Positions 9,545 through 36,854 are shown, numbered from the stretch's first letter. The stretch is DNA of 39,075 nucleotides from Ignavibacteria bacterium (GCA_012518115.1 JAAYTD010000034.1:1-39075), one strand, 5' to 3'. Program-made: numbers and translations. The notes: generated by a model not told the origin, from the letters alone.

Positions 9545-9584
9545 AACCGCAAAGAACACAAAGATTTACGCAAAGGACGCAAAG
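9545..9584. repeat. cgcaaag-type dispersed repeat, copy 1
   Basis: It starts AACCGCAAAGAACACAAAGA and continues with further cgcaaag units. The same unit occurs as an inverted pair at 33785-33840, 24 kb away, next to unrelated genes, so it is a dispersed intergenic family and not part of a gene. Confidence 0.7.
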
Positions 9585-9758: not shown

Positions 9759-12209
9759 CTAATTTTTTATAACTTTTCCTATCTTTTCTCTTGTTTTTAC
9801 TATGTACACTCCTGCCGGCAGATTTGAAATATCTATTTCTGTTTTTTCTGCATTAAGTGTTTGCTTATATAAAACTTCACCTGCTAAACTTAATATTTTT
9901 ATTTCATCGCCAAAGGTATTGCTTCCAATAAAAAATTTACCTGTAGTAGGATTAGGATAAATATCGAACCATTCTATTTCGCAAATACTTCCATTCTTTT
10001 CTTTAAGTATAGCATTGCAATAGTTGTACGGAGTAAATATTCTTTTTTGTTGTCTAGTTAAATACAGAATAAAACCTTCAGCCTGATTACAACAGTATAA
10101 CTCCCATAAATTTAACAGCGGTCTAATATCTAAGCTTTTAAGCATGTTATCGTTACAATATAAAGTATCTAATCTTATATTTTTACTTACATCTAATTCA
10201 GTTATGTCATTATAAGAACACTTGAAGTAAGTTAGTCTTGTATTATTACTTATATCTAAGTTACTTAGGTAATTGGTGGAACAATCAAAAGATTTTAGTG
10301 CAACGTTTTTACTTACATCTAAATTGCTTAGGTAATTGTCAGAACAATTTAGTGTTATTAAATTTATATTATTACTTAAATCTATGTCGCTTAATTGATC
10401 CCAATAACAATACAATTCTTCTAATTTTATATTCTTGCTTAAATCCAAGTTACCTAGTGGATTATAAGTACAAATTAAAGATATTAATTCAATGTTTTTA
10501 CTTACATCTAAGCTAGTGAGATCATTATACCAACAATGTAATTTTTCTAAGTTAATGTTATTACTTACATCTAAGTTACCTAGTGGATTATAAGCGGTCT
10601 TTAAATATGTTAGTTCTATATTATTACTTATATTTAAATTAGTTAGGTGATTGGTGGAACAATCTAGTTCTTTTAGTTTGACGTTTCCACTCAAATCTAA
10701 GTTGCTTAGGTAATTATCAGAACAATTTACTACGATTAAGTTTACATTATTACTTAAATCTAAGTTACTTAATTCATTCCAATAACAATATAGTTCTTCT
10801 AATTTTATGTTCTTGCTTATATCTAACTTACCTAATGGATTATAAGTACAAATTAAAGATATTAGTTCTGTGTTTTTACTTACATCTAAGCTATATATCT
10901 GATTAACCCAACAATGTAATTTTTCTAAGTTAATGTTATTACTTACATCTAAGCTAGTGAGACCATTACGACAACAATTTAATATCTTCAAATTTGGCAT
11001 ATATCTAATTAACTCATCTATGCTAATAAGACCAGATTCCCTGCAATCTAAAACCTCTATTTTTGCTAATGCTTCTAAATTTGTTTTAGTGCCAGTTATT
11101 CCACCGTCTGCATTTATAACGACTCCGGGCAAGGTGTACGCTGCAGAAAACTTTATCCATTTTTTTAAGCTTGGTTCTGTTATTAATGAAATTAGAGGAT
11201 GTTCTAATATAGCATCACAATAATTTTCTTCAGTAAATTTGTCTTTTTGTTCATTGGTTAAAGACAGAATAAAGCCTTCTGCTTGATTACAACAGTTTAG
11301 TTGCACTAAATTTAGTATCGAGGTAATATCTAAGCTATCAAGCATGTTATCGTTACAATATAAAAAAATTAAATTTATATTACTTGTAACATCTAAGCTA
11401 GTTAGTTGATTATAAGAACAATTAAACTCTTTTAGTCCTATGTTTTTGCTTACATCTAAATTACTTAATAGGTTTTCGGAACAATCTAGCATACCTAATT
11501 CTATATTCTTAACTACATCTAAGTTAGTTAGTTTGTTTTTAGAGCAATATAAGTCTGTCAAATTTATATTACTTGTAACATCTAAGTTAATCAATAGATT
11601 ATCAGAACAATTTAATACTCTTAAGTTTATGTTTTTGCTTACATCTAAATTACTTAATAAATTTTCAGAATAATCTAATACTTTTAATTTTATATTACTT
11701 GTAAGATCTAAGTTGCTTAATTGATTTGTAGAACAAATTAAGTCTATTAAGTTTATATTTTGACTTAAATCTAAGTTAGTTATATGATTTCCAGCACATT
11801 CTAAATTTGTTAGTTCTATGTTTTTGCTTACATCTAAATTACTTAATTGATTATTAGAACAATGCAATTCTTCTAAGTTTATGTTTTTACTTATATCTAA
11901 TTCAATCAAAGAATTACGGTTACATATTAACGTCTTCAAGTTTGGCATATGTTGAATTAATTCATCTATGCTAACAATCTTGAATTTACTACAATTTAGA
12001 TGCTCTATTTTTGCTAACGCTTCTAAGTTTGTTGTAGTATTATCTATTCCGCCATCTTCATTTATAACAACTCCAGATAATTTATCTGTATTAGCTTTTA
12101 TCCATTCTTTTAATTGTGGATTTGTTATTAATTCATCAGAAAATGCAGAATACGAAATTAAAATAAATAATGCCAAAGGCATCAAGAAACAATTTTTTAG
12201 GGTTTTCAT
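9759..12209 (-). CDS. Exported leucine-rich-repeat protein with T9SS sorting domain
   Basis: An 816-residue secreted protein. A signal peptide covers about residues 1-24. Then come many 21-residue leucine-rich repeats of the form LxxLxCSxNxLxxLDVSxNI, and a C-terminal type A T9SS sorting domain (WFDIYPNPTTGKF at about 725, ending GVYIVKTREKIGKVIKN), so it is probably exported and anchored at the cell surface. The LRR part consists of two homologous units: about 27-335 and 337-720. Each opens with LKxWIKxx and GVVIN(E/A)DGGI, continues with TNLEALAKIE and IDELI, and closes with CCNQAEGFIL and NYC(D/N)AIL. Surface LRR proteins often bind hosts or matrix; this is inference. Confidence 0.9.
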   Translation of the reverse strand: MKTLKNCFLMPLALFILISYSAFSDELITNPQLKEWIKANTDKLSGVVINEDGGIDNTTTNLEALAKIEHLNCSKFKIVSIDELIQHMPNLKTLICNRNSLIELDISKNINLEELHCSNNQLSNLDVSKNIELTNLECAGNHITNLDLSQNINLIDLICSTNQLSNLDLTSNIKLKVLDYSENLLSNLDVSKNINLRVLNCSDNLLINLDVTSNINLTDLYCSKNKLTNLDVVKNIELGMLDCSENLLSNLDVSKNIGLKEFNCSYNQLTSLDVTSNINLIFLYCNDNMLDSLDITSILNLVQLNCCNQAEGFILSLTNEQKDKFTEENYCDAILEHPLISLITEPSLKKWIKFSAAYTLPGVVINADGGITGTKTNLEALAKIEVLDCRESGLISIDELIRYMPNLKILNCCRNGLTSLDVSNNINLEKLHCWVNQIYSLDVSKNTELISLICTYNPLGKLDISKNIKLEELYCYWNELSNLDLSNNVNLIVVNCSDNYLSNLDLSGNVKLKELDCSTNHLTNLNISNNIELTYLKTAYNPLGNLDVSNNINLEKLHCWYNDLTSLDVSKNIELISLICTYNPLGNLDLSKNIKLEELYCYWDQLSDIDLSNNINLITLNCSDNYLSNLDVSKNVALKSFDCSTNYLSNLDISNNTRLTYFKCSYNDITELDVSKNIRLDTLYCNDNMLKSLDIRPLLNLWELYCCNQAEGFILYLTRQQKRIFTPYNYCNAILKEKNGSICEIEWFDIYPNPTTGKFFIGSNTFGDEIKILSLAGEVLYKQTLNAEKTEIDISNLPAGVYIVKTREKIGKVIKN

Positions 12210-30667: not shown

Positions 30668-32137
30668 TTATTTATTGTTAACAAATACTCGTTTTACGTT
30701 CTGATAATTCTTTACAGTTTTCTCTTCCATAAGCCAATTAATACAACCTTCTGCGGTTGTAATAGATAGGGTTTTCCCCGGATCTTTTCTCTGAAAATCG
30801 GCAGTAGCAATAACATAGGAATTTGTAGCTACACTATATGTTTTATCCATATCAAACGGCGTTCCGTCTTCGTTCAGAAATTCTAAATTTATTAACTTAG
30901 AATCATCTTCTGAAACGGTGTATTTCAAATGAAGTCCTGATGGGTACATTATCTTATAATAACCTTGACCACCAAACATATTTGTGATAAACGCCTTGAT
31001 TTCGTGTCCTGTGAGATTCAGCGTTACCACTTGATTGCCAAATGGATCGATAGTAAAAATCGTTTTGCGACTGATATCCCCTGCGGCTAAATGATTGATG
31101 CGTACACCGCCTTTGTTTATAAATGCTATTTGGGTTTTAGCCGTTGCTTTCAGCGCATCTGCCATCCAGTAGCCGAGCTCATCTTTTGAACGAAATTCAA
31201 AAGGAGCATTAGCAATTACTTCTTTCATTACAGGATTATCATTGTACTTATCAACCATAGAACGAGTAGCAGCTTGCTCATTACCTTTTCTGTCTACAGT
31301 AAGCAATTTCATTGAACGACTCACTTGTCCATCAGGTTTTACTATAAGGTTAATAAGCGTAGCATATTTCAACTTACTATCGGCTTGGGTAATCATTATG
31401 CCGTTGTGGATTTGATCTTTGTCCACTTTCGTGTGTGAGTGTCCACCGATAATTAGATCCACTGTACCTTCTGGCAGACTATTTGCCAATTTCACATCGT
31501 TTTCAAATCCTAAATGATTAAGAAAAATCAATAAATCGGCACTGTCTTTCAAGTAAAGATATTTTGGTGCAGTTTTATACGGGTCGGTAAAACTGAAGCC
31601 TGTTAGGTGGTCAGGGTGGCAGGCTGGCTGATTATTTGGGTTTAGATCAAGTAGTGAAACAAAACCCACTTTTAAGCCATTTTTCATAGTAACAATTTTA
31701 TAAGGCTTAACCTTAAAATTCATGTCTTTAGGCAGATTCATATTTGCACATAAAAAATCAAATTTAGCTATTTGAGTGTGTTTCTCAAAGTTCTCGGCTC
31801 CGTGATCAAATTCGTGGTTACCTACTGCCGAAAGGTCGAAACCTACAGCATTCATCAGCTCGATAGTTGGACGTCCCTTCTCTTGATACTGATCGTTAAT
31901 GGGATTTCCCGTTTGGTTGTCTCCACCCGATACCAACAGCATATCAGGATAAATAGCGCGCAGGCTATCCACCATAAATGCAAATCGAGGAAAATTGTCG
32001 ATATTGGCGTGAATATCGTTTACTGCCAATATAACGATTTCTCTGTCTGTAACTGTTTTTTGAGTTACGTTCTTACTTGTTCCACAGCTTGTTAGTGCAA
32101 ATAGCACAAATAAAGCTAATAAAACTCTATTTTTCAT
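30668..32137 (-). CDS. 5'-nucleotidase/UshA-type metallophosphoesterase lipoprotein
   Basis: A 489-residue lipoprotein (lipobox ALTSC, Cys18) with a calcineurin-like metallophosphoesterase domain: NDIHAN (Asp41, His43), SGGDNQTGNP (Asp73), VGNHEFDHG (Asn107, His108) and GGHSHTKVD. A 5'-nucleotidase C-terminal substrate domain follows (INKGGVRINHLAAGDISRK, then TIDPFGNQVVTLNLTGHEI). Family members hydrolyse nucleotides, nucleotide sugars or cyclic nucleotides outside the cytoplasm. It may scavenge extracellular nucleotides, or act on another phosphoester supplied by the unknown exported proteins next to it. Part of the higher-GC minus-strand block. Confidence 0.92.
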   Translation of the reverse strand: MKNRVLLALFVLFALTSCGTSKNVTQKTVTDREIVILAVNDIHANIDNFPRFAFMVDSLRAIYPDMLLVSGGDNQTGNPINDQYQEKGRPTIELMNAVGFDLSAVGNHEFDHGAENFEKHTQIAKFDFLCANMNLPKDMNFKVKPYKIVTMKNGLKVGFVSLLDLNPNNQPACHPDHLTGFSFTDPYKTAPKYLYLKDSADLLIFLNHLGFENDVKLANSLPEGTVDLIIGGHSHTKVDKDQIHNGIMITQADSKLKYATLINLIVKPDGQVSRSMKLLTVDRKGNEQAATRSMVDKYNDNPVMKEVIANAPFEFRSKDELGYWMADALKATAKTQIAFINKGGVRINHLAAGDISRKTIFTIDPFGNQVVTLNLTGHEIKAFITNMFGGQGYYKIMYPSGLHLKYTVSEDDSKLINLEFLNEDGTPFDMDKTYSVATNSYVIATADFQRKDPGKTLSITTAEGCINWLMEEKTVKNYQNVKRVFVNNK

Positions 32138-32310: not shown

Positions 32311-32505
32311 TTATTCTTTGATTATTAAGTGACTTCCGTCTGTGAGTGCTCCATCGTGTGCCACGCTGTTGCCGTAAGCATCTTCCGCTTCGGGCAAAGG
32401 CGACGGTACTTTTTCCTTTTTTTGAGTATAATATGCACGCATAGCATCAGCAACGGTAGCGCCTTGAAAAATCATTAGTTCTATTCTATTCACTGTTACT
32501 TTCAT
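32311..32505 (-). CDS. Small ThiS/MoaD-like (beta-grasp) protein
   Basis: A 64-residue protein. It starts MKVTVNRIELMIFQGATVADAM and ends GALTDGSHLIIKE, the pattern of a minimal ubiquitin-like beta-grasp: first hairpin, helix after GATVAD, last strand after L-x-DG. ThiS/MoaD sulfur carriers end in Gly-Gly; this one does not, so it cannot be a standard sulfur carrier unless processed. A Lys/Pro-rich loop (KKEKVPSPLPEAED) replaces the middle. It lies between the TPM gene and the 5'-nucleotidase gene. The fold is inferred from pattern only. Confidence 0.6.
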   Translation of the reverse strand: MKVTVNRIELMIFQGATVADAMRAYYTQKKEKVPSPLPEAEDAYGNSVAHDGALTDGSHLIIKE

Positions 32506-32677: not shown

Positions 32678-33760
32678 TTAAAATTTCGTACTGGCTCCGC
32701 CACCGCCACTGCTTCCACCACCCCAAGAACCACCTGAACTACTATCACTACTACTGCTATTACTATAAGAACTGCCATCACCGCCACGTGATTTAGGTTT
32801 AGGTGGCTCGTACTTGTAAGGCACCAACACTTTATGTCCGTAATTACACGCTTTACAAATATAATGATAACGCTTCAACCCATCTTGTCCCGGTAGAGCT
32901 TTTTGTTCTACTTGCGGTTTGTATTTCAATACTACCTTGCCTTTTGCACCGCATTTTTTGCAATTAAGACGCGGAATATCATCTTTTTTCACTATTTCTT
33001 TATATATCATATAGAATAGATAGGAAGGTAAAAAGAGAACTGCGATAGCACAACCAATGCCCGAAAGCGACTCATACTTAGCTGCTGCTACAAATGGATC
33101 CTCACTTCGGACTACACGTCTCTTTCTTATATACTCTACAATAAGAATAATAATAAAACCGCCCAAGAACCAAAGCAAACCTAATTTTTCGCTATCATTT
33201 AAGAAGGGCTCCTCTATAAGCAACTCAGAAGTTCCATCAAACACTTTTTCCACTTCTTCCACTCCTGCGATAAGTCCCTCACCATATTTATTTTCTTTTA
33301 GAAAAGGAACCATTTTATTCACCTGAATAAGTTTACTTAAACCATCAGTAAGCGTTGCCTCTGTACCTAGTCCAGTTTCAAAAACTATTTCACGCTCGCC
33401 ATCCGCTGTAAGTAGCAGAATGAGCAAACCGTTATGTGTTTCTTTATCGCCGATGCCCCAAGTATTGAACAGCTCGGTAGCAAACTCTTTCGCTGAGCCG
33501 TAGCGCCCCGTGTCTATTGCCGGAAGTACTACAATGGCTGTTTCCACACCAATTGAATCGCGCAAATAGGCAATACGTTTATCTAAAATAACTATATTGT
33601 CTTTTTTCAAGACATTTTCCGGGTCGCTTACATAGCGAGTATAATCCTGCAATTGCACATTTGGAACGTCTTTTACCGTATATCTGTGCTGTGCTTCTAC
33701 GTCTGCATAAAAAAACAGCAGTGCGAGTATTATTACACTTATTTTTATTGATGTTTTCAT
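32678..33760 (-). CDS. TPM-domain (YgcG-type) membrane protein with zinc ribbon
   Basis: A 360-residue protein: signal peptide (1-24), an extracytoplasmic TPM domain (about 36-180; YVSDPENVLKK, then NGLLILLLTADGEREIVFETG and a TDGLSKLI segment), two membrane helices (about 193-212 and 240-258), a cytoplasmic zinc ribbon (CKKCGAKGK and ICKACNYGH), and a Ser/Gly-rich tail (SGGSWGGGSSGGGGA) ending in Phe. The Gly/Ser tail is typical of YgcG proteins. In Bacillus the TPM protein YdjH is encoded with YdjG (zinc ribbon) and YdjI (SPFH). Here it follows LemA. TPM proteins have been linked to membrane protein quality control; the role here is inferred. Confidence 0.88.
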   Translation of the reverse strand: MKTSIKISVIILALLFFYADVEAQHRYTVKDVPNVQLQDYTRYVSDPENVLKKDNIVILDKRIAYLRDSIGVETAIVVLPAIDTGRYGSAKEFATELFNTWGIGDKETHNGLLILLLTADGEREIVFETGLGTEATLTDGLSKLIQVNKMVPFLKENKYGEGLIAGVEEVEKVFDGTSELLIEEPFLNDSEKLGLLWFLGGFIIILIVEYIRKRRVVRSEDPFVAAAKYESLSGIGCAIAVLFLPSYLFYMIYKEIVKKDDIPRLNCKKCGAKGKVVLKYKPQVEQKALPGQDGLKRYHYICKACNYGHKVLVPYKYEPPKPKSRGGDGSSYSNSSSSDSSSGGSWGGGSSGGGGASTKF

Positions 33761-33784
33761 TATCTTATTTTGTGTTTAACTTTA

Positions 33785-33840
33785 CTCTTTGTGTACTTTG
33801 CGGTTTTTCCAAGTCTATTTAACCGCAAAGAGCGCAAAAG
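33785..33840. repeat. cgcaaag-type dispersed repeat, copies 2 and 3 as an inverted pair
   Basis: CTCTTTGTGTACTTTGCGGTT-like sequence (33785-33805) is the inverse of AACCGCAAAGAGCGCAAAAG (33821-33840), forming a long imperfect hairpin between the TPM and LemA genes. It belongs to the family seen at 9545-9584. Confidence 0.7.
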
Positions 33841-33876
33841 TTCATAACAAAAAATGCTAAGTAACTTATTTGCATA

Positions 33877-34467
33877 TCAAAACTTCACGTCCGGAACGGA
33901 GCTACTATTGCTCTTGCCTTTGAAATATTCTTTTTGTGTAAAACCGAACATAGTAGCGATGATATTTTTAGGAAATCGACGACGATAACTGTTATAATTA
34001 TTTACCGCTTCGTTGAACTTCCTGCGTACAAATGCAATCCTGTTTTCAGTGCCTTCTAATTGTCCTTGCAGCATTATAAAATTTTCGTTAGCTTTCAGGT
34101 CGGGATAGTTTTCAACTAGCATCATCAGACGTGATAAAGCCTGCGACAACTCGCCTTGTACATTGTTTAATTTTTGCAAAGTTTCTGCATTAAGATTTTC
34201 TGCATCAACCGTTAATTGAGTAGCTTTGGTACGTGCTTCTACCACTTGTGCAAATGTTTCCTGCTCGTGCTTGGCGTATCCCTTCACAGTTTCCACCAAA
34301 TTCATTATTAAATCAGCACGGCGTTGGTATTGATTTTCCACTTGCGACCAAGCCATTTGAACGCTTTCGTCCCTTTTTACCAAACCATTGTAAGTCCCCC
34401 AGAAAAAGGAAACTATCAACAATAATGCTATAGCAACGGAAAACAATATTATTAATTTTGTTCTCAT
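33877..34467 (-). CDS. lemA: LemA family protein
   Basis: A 196-residue protein with one N-terminal membrane anchor (about 4-23) and the helical LemA body: YNGLVKRDESVQMAWSQVEN, QYQRRADLIMNLVETVKGYA, the ALSRLMMLVENYPDLKAN core and GTENRIAFVRRKFNEAVNNYN, ending NIIATMFGFTQKEYFKG. It is of normal family length. LemA proteins have an outward-facing helical bundle and are often encoded with TPM proteins; the molecular role is poorly known. It lies between the zinc-ribbon gene and the TPM gene, filling the place that PspA holds in the Bacillus ydj operon. Confidence 0.95.
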   Translation of the reverse strand: MRTKLIILFSVAIALLLIVSFFWGTYNGLVKRDESVQMAWSQVENQYQRRADLIMNLVETVKGYAKHEQETFAQVVEARTKATQLTVDAENLNAETLQKLNNVQGELSQALSRLMMLVENYPDLKANENFIMLQGQLEGTENRIAFVRRKFNEAVNNYNSYRRRFPKNIIATMFGFTQKEYFKGKSNSSSVPDVKF

Positions 34468-34513
34468 TATTTGTAAAATTATATTTTTTAAAGTTATAAA
34501 ATTAAAAATCAGA

Positions 34514-34552
34514 AGCGGGAATTAAAATTATAAAAACATCTCTATTCCCGCT
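34514..34552 (-). other. Intercistronic hairpin between the zinc-ribbon and LemA genes
   Basis: AGCGGGAAT (34514-34522) and ATTCCCGCT (34544-34552) form a perfect 9-bp stem with a 21-base loop. No T-run follows on the minus strand, so it is more likely an RNA processing or stability element than a full terminator. Confidence 0.5.
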
Positions 34553-34562
34553 CTCGTACTAT

Positions 34563-35654
34563 TTACTGTCCGAATATCATTTTTAGTGCCACAATAACTG
34601 CGATAATAGCTATAACAAGCATAGCAATTTTCACCTTGTCTTTCGGATACTGACCAATTACTTGTCCAGTGCGCCCGTTTATCACAAATTGATAAAGTTT
34701 GTTATTGAATTTGAAAGCGCTTATCCAAACTGGAAGCAACAGATGTTTAAACTTCACATTGTTAAACTGCGTATGGCTTGAGGTGATTCTTTGTTCGTCG
34801 CCACCAATATCCTCCCTAATAGTATCTTCTATCACGATGTTCATTTTTTCTTTGGCATCTTCTATCGCCTCGCGAAAATCTTTCTGATAAACTTCTGTAA
34901 TAAATCCCGCCAAAAACTCTTTTTTGTATCCCACGCAATTCATCATATCCCAATTTGTAAGACTATTCATAATACTTTCAGGAAGAGTTTTAGATGCCGG
35001 AACAATAACGTCGTCGAAATCTACATTCACGTTACCGCTAGCACTGTACCAATCGGTAACTGTACGTTTTACCTCTTCACCCTTTTCGTTGCGTGATGTT
35101 TCGGTACGATGCATGCCTCGCTGACCTGTATATTCAGTATGTGTATTAGCATCATAAGTCCAAAATGGCAAATACACGCCTTTGAAACCATCGGTTGATA
35201 CACCATTTTTTTTGAGTTGTGAAGGTAAAAACCATTTTTTCCCTAACCATTTTTTAAAGTTTTCTCTACTGACTTTTTCAGTAATTTTAAATGGTAATAA
35301 ATATTCCGGCTGCCAAAAGCGTTTTACCGATGCTTCTTTCATAATAAGCGGTGTGCCACAAAAAGCACATTTCGCAGCTGATGTATTTTCGGGCAAAGTA
35401 GTTGTAGCTCCGCATTGACGACATTTTATTTCGGGAATTTCCACTACATCTTCGGTATTGTTTTCATCGGCACAATTTTTCCAATACTCAAAATCATTTT
35501 CTTTAATTTTTGCAGGTGTTTTGTCTAATCCGCCGGTGTTCCCGCAGTAAATACATTTCAAATCTTCGTCGGCGGGAGAATACTGCATAATGCCACCGCA
35601 TGCTTTACACTTAGTTTGCAGTGCATCGTTTATAGGTTGTTTTATTTCGTCCAT
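34563..35654 (-). CDS. Double zinc-ribbon membrane protein (YdjG-like)
   Basis: A 363-residue protein with two zinc ribbons at the N-terminus (Cys16/19 with Cys34/37; Cys78/81 with Cys96/99), a central beta-rich domain (about 105-330; YLPFWTYDANTHTEYTGQRG, then GNVNVDFDDVIVPASK and LLLPVWISAFKFN), and a single C-terminal membrane helix (about 343-361). This is the layout of the family represented by Bacillus YdjG, often mis-named as a primosomal or TFIIB-type zinc protein. No helicase motifs are present. It lies between the SPFH gene and LemA. A tail-anchored scaffold is a reasonable guess. Confidence 0.82.
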   Translation of the reverse strand: MDEIKQPINDALQTKCKACGGIMQYSPADEDLKCIYCGNTGGLDKTPAKIKENDFEYWKNCADENNTEDVVEIPEIKCRQCGATTTLPENTSAAKCAFCGTPLIMKEASVKRFWQPEYLLPFKITEKVSRENFKKWLGKKWFLPSQLKKNGVSTDGFKGVYLPFWTYDANTHTEYTGQRGMHRTETSRNEKGEEVKRTVTDWYSASGNVNVDFDDVIVPASKTLPESIMNSLTNWDMMNCVGYKKEFLAGFITEVYQKDFREAIEDAKEKMNIVIEDTIREDIGGDEQRITSSHTQFNNVKFKHLLLPVWISAFKFNNKLYQFVINGRTGQVIGQYPKDKVKIAMLVIAIIAVIVALKMIFGQ

Positions 35655-35714
35655 ATTTGATTAGTTAACAAATTAAAAATTTTAAGGTTCATTATTTATT
35701 GTACTTGTCAAATT

Positions 35715-36854
35715 TTATAACGGTGGCGGTACTGCTCCGAATAATTTTGCAAGCGCCGGTACGCTGCTAGCGGCTGCCCAAGCCGGCATTCCTTGTGTCC
35801 ATACCAAAGTATCAGGTGTAAGTTGTCCTTGCTGAACCATCTGTTGTAATTGTGCTTCAGGAAACGGACCTTGTTGTACGCCGTTTATTGCTACGTGGTA
35901 CATTGGTTGCGGTGGAATAGGTGGCGGAACAGCTCCTCCTTGTTGCATAGCAGGATTGAATTGTCCAGCTTGCGGATTTGCCATTTGTTGTGCCATCTGT
36001 CCTGCCATTGCAAATCCCATGCCCGCACCCATAGCATCGCCTGCCAGACTTCCTCCTCCTGCAGGATTGTTAGCTGCATCTTTGAGCGAGTCAGCAAATT
36101 GCATTTGAGTGTAAGCTGCCATATTACCGATAACGCCCATACTTGTACGTTTGTCGAGAGCTTCTTCCACTGCTTCAGGTAGTGAAATATTTTCTACTAA
36201 AAAACGGGTAAGTTCGATACCGTATTCGGCAAAATCATCTTTCAGAGCTACGGTAAGTCCGTCAGAAAATTCATTGAGATTAGCGGCAAGATCAAGTGCT
36301 GCAATCTTAGATTCTCCTAAATAATCGGTGAACTTAGTAATAACAAAATTACGCAATTGATCACTAATTCCCTCAGTGGTAAATTCGCCACTTGTTCCCG
36401 CTACATTACGGATAAAAGGTATTGGGTCAGGCTGAATTCGGAAGTTGTAAGAACCGAATGCACGCATACGAATAGGACCAAATTCAGGATCGCGTAGCAT
36501 TATTGGGTTTGCTGTTCCCCAACGTTGATTAAGAAATTGCTTGGTATTCACGAAATAAACATCTACCTTGAAAGGTGAGTTGAAACCGTATTTCCAACCT
36601 TTTATGGTGGTTAGTATAGGCATATTGGCAGTGGTTAGTTCGTAACGTCCCGGCTGGAACACGTCAGCAAACTGCCCTTCATCTACCAATACGGCTATTT
36701 GAGTTTCGCGCACGGTCAGCTGCGCCCCGTTTTTAATTTCCGACTGATAGCGTGGAAAACGCCAAATCATTGTGTCGCTTGTTTCGTCTGTCCATTCAAT
36801 GATATCTATAAATTCATTGAATACTTTTTGTTTGATTTTTTCAAAGAGTGCCAT
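35715..36854 (-). CDS. SPFH-domain protein with C-terminal GYF_2 domain (YdjI-like)
   Basis: A 379-residue protein. Residues about 1-235 match the SPFH/band-7-like family once called virion core proteins (YdjI): NEFIDIIEWTDETSDTMIWR, GQFADVFQPGRYELTTANMP, RAFGSYNFRIQPDP and LVENISLPEAVEEALDKRTS. A Gly/Ala/Gln/Met-rich linker (about 240-315) follows, then a GYF_2 (DUF4339) domain at 318-372 (YHVAINGVQQGPFPEAQL, WTQGMPAWAAAS). GYF_2 domains are thought to bind proline-rich or membrane partners; the linker ends in VPPPIPPQP. It is the first gene of the accessory block; it lacks a signal peptide and is probably a peripheral, oligomeric membrane scaffold. Confidence 0.9.
   Translation of the reverse strand: MALFEKIKQKVFNEFIDIIEWTDETSDTMIWRFPRYQSEIKNGAQLTVRETQIAVLVDEGQFADVFQPGRYELTTANMPILTTIKGWKYGFNSPFKVDVYFVNTKQFLNQRWGTANPIMLRDPEFGPIRMRAFGSYNFRIQPDPIPFIRNVAGTSGEFTTEGISDQLRNFVITKFTDYLGESKIAALDLAANLNEFSDGLTVALKDDFAEYGIELTRFLVENISLPEAVEEALDKRTSMGVIGNMAAYTQMQFADSLKDAANNPAGGGSLAGDAMGAGMGFAMAGQMAQQMANPQAGQFNPAMQQGGAVPPPIPPQPMYHVAINGVQQGPFPEAQLQQMVQQGQLTPDTLVWTQGMPAWAAASSVPALAKLFGAVPPPL

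Follow-up and report, generated by a model that had tools for sequence, protein, structure and literature searches.

The locus and the proteins it encodes

In a 39,075-nucleotide stretch of DNA from an Ignavibacteria bacterium (GCA_012518115.1 JAAYTD010000034.1:1-39075), which as a whole we call the window, positions 32,678 to 36,854 hold neighbouring genes for an SPFH protein, a zinc-ribbon protein resembling YdjG of Bacillus subtilis, LemA and a TPM protein. Our best reading is that this is a new, putative variant of the YdjGHI-like scaffold, with a LemA–TPM pair joined on to an SPFH–YdjG core. A first-pass annotation had placed the four genes in this order and in one orientation; its coordinates and strand were right, and the families were confirmed by Pfam, by cysteine patterns and by transmembrane (TM) segments. 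The gaps between these same-strand genes are 60 nucleotides (nt) for SPFH/YdjG, 95 nt for YdjG/LemA and 116 nt for LemA/TPM.

35715..36854, minus strand: SPFH (Band_7_1) protein with a Pro-rich linker, a C-terminal GYF_2 domain and a PPPL tail (Pfam)
34563..35654, minus strand: YdjG homologue with two zinc ribbons, a beta domain and a C-terminal tail-anchor TM segment (blastp, alignments, AlphaFold2)
33877..34467, minus strand: LemA, an N-terminal TM segment and a helical bundle (Pfam, PDB match)
32678..33760, minus strand: TPM protein with a signal peptide, a TPM domain and one or two TM segments (Pfam, TM call); its C-terminal end is a four-Cys zinc ribbon followed by a Gly-rich GGGGASTKF tail

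The SPFH protein matches Band_7_1 (E 5e-91) and GYF_2 (E 3e-21) in Pfam, and no hydrophobic (TM) segment was found in it. SPFH proteins encoded beside other YdjG relatives mostly end in a GYF_2-like segment and a PPP tail; this comes from visual inspection of the C-terminal ends, because a strict pattern for such an end matched only 27 of 75 SPFH proteins.

The zinc-ribbon protein, 363 amino acids (aa) long, gave no Pfam domain above the cut-off. With blastp it aligned end to end with B. subtilis YdjG (27% over 337 aa, E 6e-43), and on this sequence comparison it is a true homologue of that protein. The first and last residues of the B. subtilis query sequence agree with primers printed in PMC8581546. 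Two four-Cys ribbons (C16, C19, C34, C37 and C78, C81, C96, C99) have all eight cysteines invariant in the 45 homologues aligned from the fetched loci, and the sole hydrophobic segment (343-361) is at the C-terminus, which bears out the earlier description of a double zinc-ribbon, tail-anchored protein. The AlphaFold2 model has a predicted local distance difference test (pLDDT) score of 91 and very long strands of 26-31 residues. Its best structural match is a weak one, to the YpeB C-terminal domain 5boi (Z 5.2, 3.0 A, 66 residues), and agrees with the YdjG-YpeB relationship stated in PMC11237479. Foldseek returned nothing at E 0.001 or better with this model, and a search of PDB sequences using the YdjG profile gave weak zinc-ribbon matches alone. 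Matches of the long strands to pore-forming toxins had TM-scores near 0.1 and were discarded.

LemA matches its own family in Pfam (PF04011, E 1e-59) and the PDB entry 2etd, 'lemA protein' (E 1.5e-45), with no Pfam match to the PspA family (PF04012, PspA_IM30). The TPM protein matches TPM_phosphatase (E 5e-26), and two CxxC pairs were located in it, at 267 and 302.

Distribution of the core, the pair and their joined form

A scan of species genomes returned at least 595 YdjG-family relatives, and the locus counts given here use the best 80. These loci come from Bacteroidota, Pseudomonadota, Cyanobacteria, Acidobacteriota, Planctomycetota, Spirochaetes and others. An SPFH gene is present at 67 of the 80, on the same strand within 300 bp at 57. 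The conserved unit is thus the SPFH–YdjG pair, and it is found across many phyla. Such dyads in Pseudomonadota, Cyanobacteria, Planctomycetota and others (L025-L098) resemble the window in their proteins, gene order and GYF_2-like/PPP end, but they have neither LemA nor TPM nearby. Unlike in most phyla, seven Acidobacteriota YdjG loci (L034, L046, L050, L063, L065, L080, L096) showed no SPFH gene in the stretch examined.

The core seems, on gene neighbourhood only, to take different partners by lineage. In Rhodobacterales and a Methylomonas, genes for TelA, XpaC-like or DUF2927 proteins lie upstream of SPFH–YdjG, often so in the Rhodobacterales. An Enterococcus gallinarum record has contiguous SPFH–YdjG–TPM with PspA not nearby; two further loci (L125, L128) have SPFH–YdjG–TPM without an adjacent PspA, and another (L127) has YdjG–TPM. 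The Bacillota SPFH–YdjG–TPM loci (L099, L125, L128), none with an adjacent PspA, share the order and single strand of the window locus, but they lack LemA, their TPM is YdjH-like and their SPFH protein is only distantly similar. The PspA-containing operon of B. subtilis looks like one lineage's addition, among several, to the shared core. We also observed that L125-L130 and L099 are labelled phage or plasmid, yet housekeeping genes surround SPFH–YdjG (dnaX, recR, tmk and ribosomal proteins in L099, and similar genes in L130), so that they look like host chromosome. On a Vibrio plasmid (L101:1-4150), genes for TIR-domain and TRAFs-binding proteins lie upstream of SPFH–YdjG and divergent from it, a defence-like context.

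LemA and TPM form a separate, common Bacteroidota pair. Among 118 sampled Bacteroidota genomes, 103 carry LemA and 100 carry TPM, and a distance of a few hundred bases between the two is common. By comparison, YdjG occurs in seven of these genomes and Band_7_1 in 19, which include all seven with YdjG. The window proteins resemble such pairs (for example L104-L120): LemA is about 50% identical, TPM follows directly with a signal peptide, TPM domain, TM segment and a Gly-rich GGGGAS tail, and the window TPM is closest to the TPMs of these pairs (about 30%), not to the Enterococcus TPM. The ordinary pairs differ in that their TPM has no zinc ribbon and that they were not found beside SPFH–YdjG. 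In a tree, the TPMs of the joined loci described below are one group (100/100) on a long branch, and the window TPM stands apart from YdjH-like TPMs (100/98), although an approximately unbiased (AU) test does not reject joining them (p 0.35). A four-Cys ribbon after the TM region is present in five of five TPMs from the joined loci versus none of 19 comparison TPMs, all long enough to hold one (17 LemA-linked from Bacteroidota, the Enterococcus TPM and YdjH). The TPM of this group has gained a zinc ribbon.

Contiguous YdjG–LemA–TPM was found in the window and in four relatives (L019, L020, L022, L037) with gaps of 17-132 nt and YdjG identity of 62-73%, which argues that the order is more than chance. 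SPFH lies upstream in these four as far as the contigs reach. A further relative (L021) has SPFH–YdjG and LemA, with no TPM seen. The pairs are thus joined only in the window and four to five Bacteroidales relatives, and flanks and inserts vary among them. The first-pass annotation had named a failure of the four genes to stay together in other genomes as telling against its proposal; they do stay together, but in one small group and not across Bacteroidota. In one relative LemA is split over two reading frames (L020:11222-11839), possibly by a frameshift or an assembly error.

Within the order of the window genome (123 genomes), YdjG is present in two and TPM in one other genome, where it is only a distant relative. 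The genus mate in this survey lacks YdjG, TPM and the small protein encoded downstream of TPM in the window (see below). On these counts the parts come and go largely together. The distribution is patchy and transfer-like, on a genuine contig. A leucine-rich repeat (LRR) protein with a Por secretion tail (window 9759-12209) belongs to a large paralogue family, and its DNA is matched dozens of times on the genome's other contigs. A contaminating or misbinned contig was considered and rejected, since this family is spread over many contigs of the genome and the window has a long match to the genus mate.

PspA and the role of the locus

The first-pass annotation proposed that LemA stands in place of PspA in a module like that of B. 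subtilis, and its account of ydjFGHI, which encodes PspA, the zinc-ribbon protein, the TPM protein and the SPFH protein acting together at damaged membranes, agrees with PMC8581546 and PMC11237479. In B. subtilis, the SPFH protein YdjI, itself required for recruitment of PspA to the membrane, has YdjG and YdjH as its anchors, and deletion of ydjG or ydjH delocalises both YdjI and PspA; two-hybrid contacts were seen for YdjG-YdjH, YdjH-YdjI, YdjH-PspA and PspA-YdjI (PMC8581546). The window locus is like pspA-ydjGHI (PMC8581546, PMC9239133, PMC11237479) in having SPFH, YdjG (double ribbon, YpeB-related domain, TM segment) and TPM in neighbouring genes. It differs in having LemA and no PspA, in a TPM that has a zinc ribbon of its own and appears closer to LemA-linked TPMs, and in an SPFH protein that ends in GYF_2 and a Pro-rich tail where the B. 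subtilis protein has a zinc ribbon (PMC11237479). The link to YdjGHI is therefore real, with three of the four partners recognisable and the YdjG homology confirmed; the exchange of LemA for PspA is the part that was not supported in the form proposed. Among the papers searched, none was found that combines LemA, SPFH and TPM in the manner of the window.

In general, PspA does not lie beside this core. It was found near YdjG at none of the 80 loci, in stretches of at most 10 kb on each side and often less. This is not mere insensitivity, because the single-sequence PspA query detects proteobacterial PspA at about 33-37% identity. PspA gave no match in the window, but the same genome encodes one full-length PspA on another contig (C86, E 2.5e-49), with none of the four families of the locus beside it. 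The other five genomes with the cluster, several of them incomplete drafts, gave no PF04012 match. The first-pass annotation had itself named a separate PspA gene working with the four from elsewhere in the genome as telling against its proposal. A separate gene is present in this genome; that none was detected in the other five speaks for the proposal. As a sign of replacement by LemA we rejected the absence of PspA, since PspA is also missing from roughly half of the 22 further YdjG genomes, in which the locus has no LemA, and the difference is not significant (Fisher p 0.20).

That LemA functionally replaces PspA and has taken over membrane repair in a YdjFGHI system is therefore unlikely. 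The recognisable partners, the lack of a PF04012 match in five of six cluster genomes and the membrane-anchored, helical nature of LemA would fit it. However, PspA is absent near the core and from many YdjG genomes anyway, the Bacillota YdjG–TPM loci have neither PspA nor LemA, and LemA travels with TPM as an ordinary pair and has no PspA_IM30 match. To put LemA simply 'in place of PspA' says too little, because lineages attach different partners to one SPFH–YdjG core. It is slightly less probable still that, as happens in B. subtilis, the system works with PspA, here the distant one in trans, LemA being an additional component. The full-length gene on C86 and the recruitment of PspA by the B. 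subtilis SPFH protein speak for this, as does the suggestion that operons without PspA in a related band-7/flotillin group may use a PspA encoded elsewhere (PMC11237479), but the five other cluster genomes (draft assemblies) gave no match and no cluster family lies beside the gene on C86.

Two independent pairs might merely have become adjacent in one small group, co-inherited or co-transferred without joint function, and each pair is indeed found alone in other genomes, the joined form is limited to the window and four to five relatives, and inserts separate SPFH in three of them. We consider this doubtful, since YdjG–LemA–TPM stays contiguous while its surroundings change, the TPM ribbon was gained in this group only and the order SPFH–YdjG–TPM is seen independently in Bacillota. 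A role in export or assembly of adjacent secreted proteins (DUF1565 beta-helix, DUF6935, lipoproteins) rather than in stress repair is highly improbable. In relatives (L019, L020, L037, L016, L021), genes for such proteins either separate SPFH from YdjG or follow shortly downstream, and they come after the window cluster as well, but they vary by locus and in most phyla the core occurs without them.

The reading that we favour, at a probability of roughly 0.55, is that the locus encodes an inner-membrane scaffold for stress and quality control built on the conserved SPFH–YdjG core. The four proteins very probably act together at the membrane, and their role is probably in envelope stress. YdjG would be inserted in the membrane by its tail, its zinc ribbons and beta domain facing the cytoplasm, and together with the TPM membrane protein it may anchor the soluble SPFH protein there, in the way that YdjI is anchored by YdjG and YdjH in B. 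subtilis. The SPFH protein would oligomerise and offer further contacts through its GYF_2 and Pro-rich segments. The TPM domain is predicted to lie outside the membrane, with an assembly, chaperone or sensing role, and LemA would be there as the usual partner of TPM. The acquired TPM ribbon may tie the LemA–TPM pair to the core, although as a docking element it is a tentative candidate. A local PspA would not be needed; in genomes that encode one at another place, such as this one, recruitment of PspA to the scaffold may still occur. In an sppA mutant of Flavobacterium columnare, both LemA and a TPM-domain gene are raised alongside an ECF sigma factor (PMC13236525), and a Listeria TelA mutant has increased nisin sensitivity (PMC12791056); both fit an envelope-stress role.

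Several results weigh against such a scaffold. SPFH–YdjG occurs without any TPM in two genomes (G037, G124), and the core therefore does not require LemA–TPM. The group with the joined cluster is small, and in three relatives other genes occupy 2-4 kb between SPFH and YdjG. The topology of TPM is also ambiguous: a cleaved signal peptide with two full TM spans would place the ribbon outside the cytoplasm.

LemA and TPM, whose functions are not settled, are found very commonly in bacterial envelopes, and the joint locus offers a concrete partner hypothesis for both. The Psp link of YdjGHI may be an elaboration that one lineage made on a wider SPFH–YdjG core, which makes PspA-free bacteria a place to study that core.

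A linked miniprotein and other neighbouring features

Three further features lie beside or between the four genes.

33796..33830, no strand: perfect inverted repeat TTTGCGGTT...AACCGCAAA between lemA and tpm
32311..32505, minus strand: ubiquitin-fold (beta-grasp) miniprotein of 64 aa (homologues at cluster loci, AlphaFold2)
30668..32137, minus strand: lipoprotein-like 5'-nucleotidase/metallophosphoesterase (Pfam, clustering), whose membership of the system is uncertain

The miniprotein gene, a linked fifth gene that the first-pass annotation did not mention, is present after every joined locus long enough to show it. Homologues occur at L019, L022 and L037, and L020 stops short of the matching position. 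In the order of the window genome it was found in one of 123 genomes, the window genome itself. The AlphaFold2 model has a pLDDT of 91.5, from a shallow alignment with two of five models good, and its fold is similar to SAMP1 (4hro, Z 9.3, 1.5 A over 63 residues), a ubiquitin/MoaD-like beta-grasp. There is no C-terminal GG, and conjugation is therefore unlikely. A bolder proposal, about which we are sceptical, is that SPFH–YdjG is an ancient core with swappable modules (PspA and TPM, TPM, LemA and ribbon TPM, XpaC-TelA) and that the Bacteroidales form would be a PspA-independent membrane-repair system coupled by the TPM ribbon and the miniprotein.

Among the relatives, the variable secreted proteins (DUF1565 beta-helix, DUF6935, lipoproteins) encoded between SPFH and YdjG or just downstream were seen at L019:2694-6130, L037:8214-9944, L016:7914-13305 and L021:10716-12035. 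A family of TPR hybrid histidine kinases, possible regulators, is encoded near the cluster at L037:2953-5883 (with an AraC-type output), L019:13503-16394 and L021:1991-3928.

The inverted repeat between lemA and tpm has a chance expectation of 0.00, and no T-run terminator was recognised in this gap. A AACCGCAAAG-type repeat is intergenic at window 33788-33838 and 9545-9562 and is possibly the genome's own short interspersed repeat. The metallophosphoesterase gene is a recurrent neighbour, and by clustering three relatives (L022, L037, L024) have one too.

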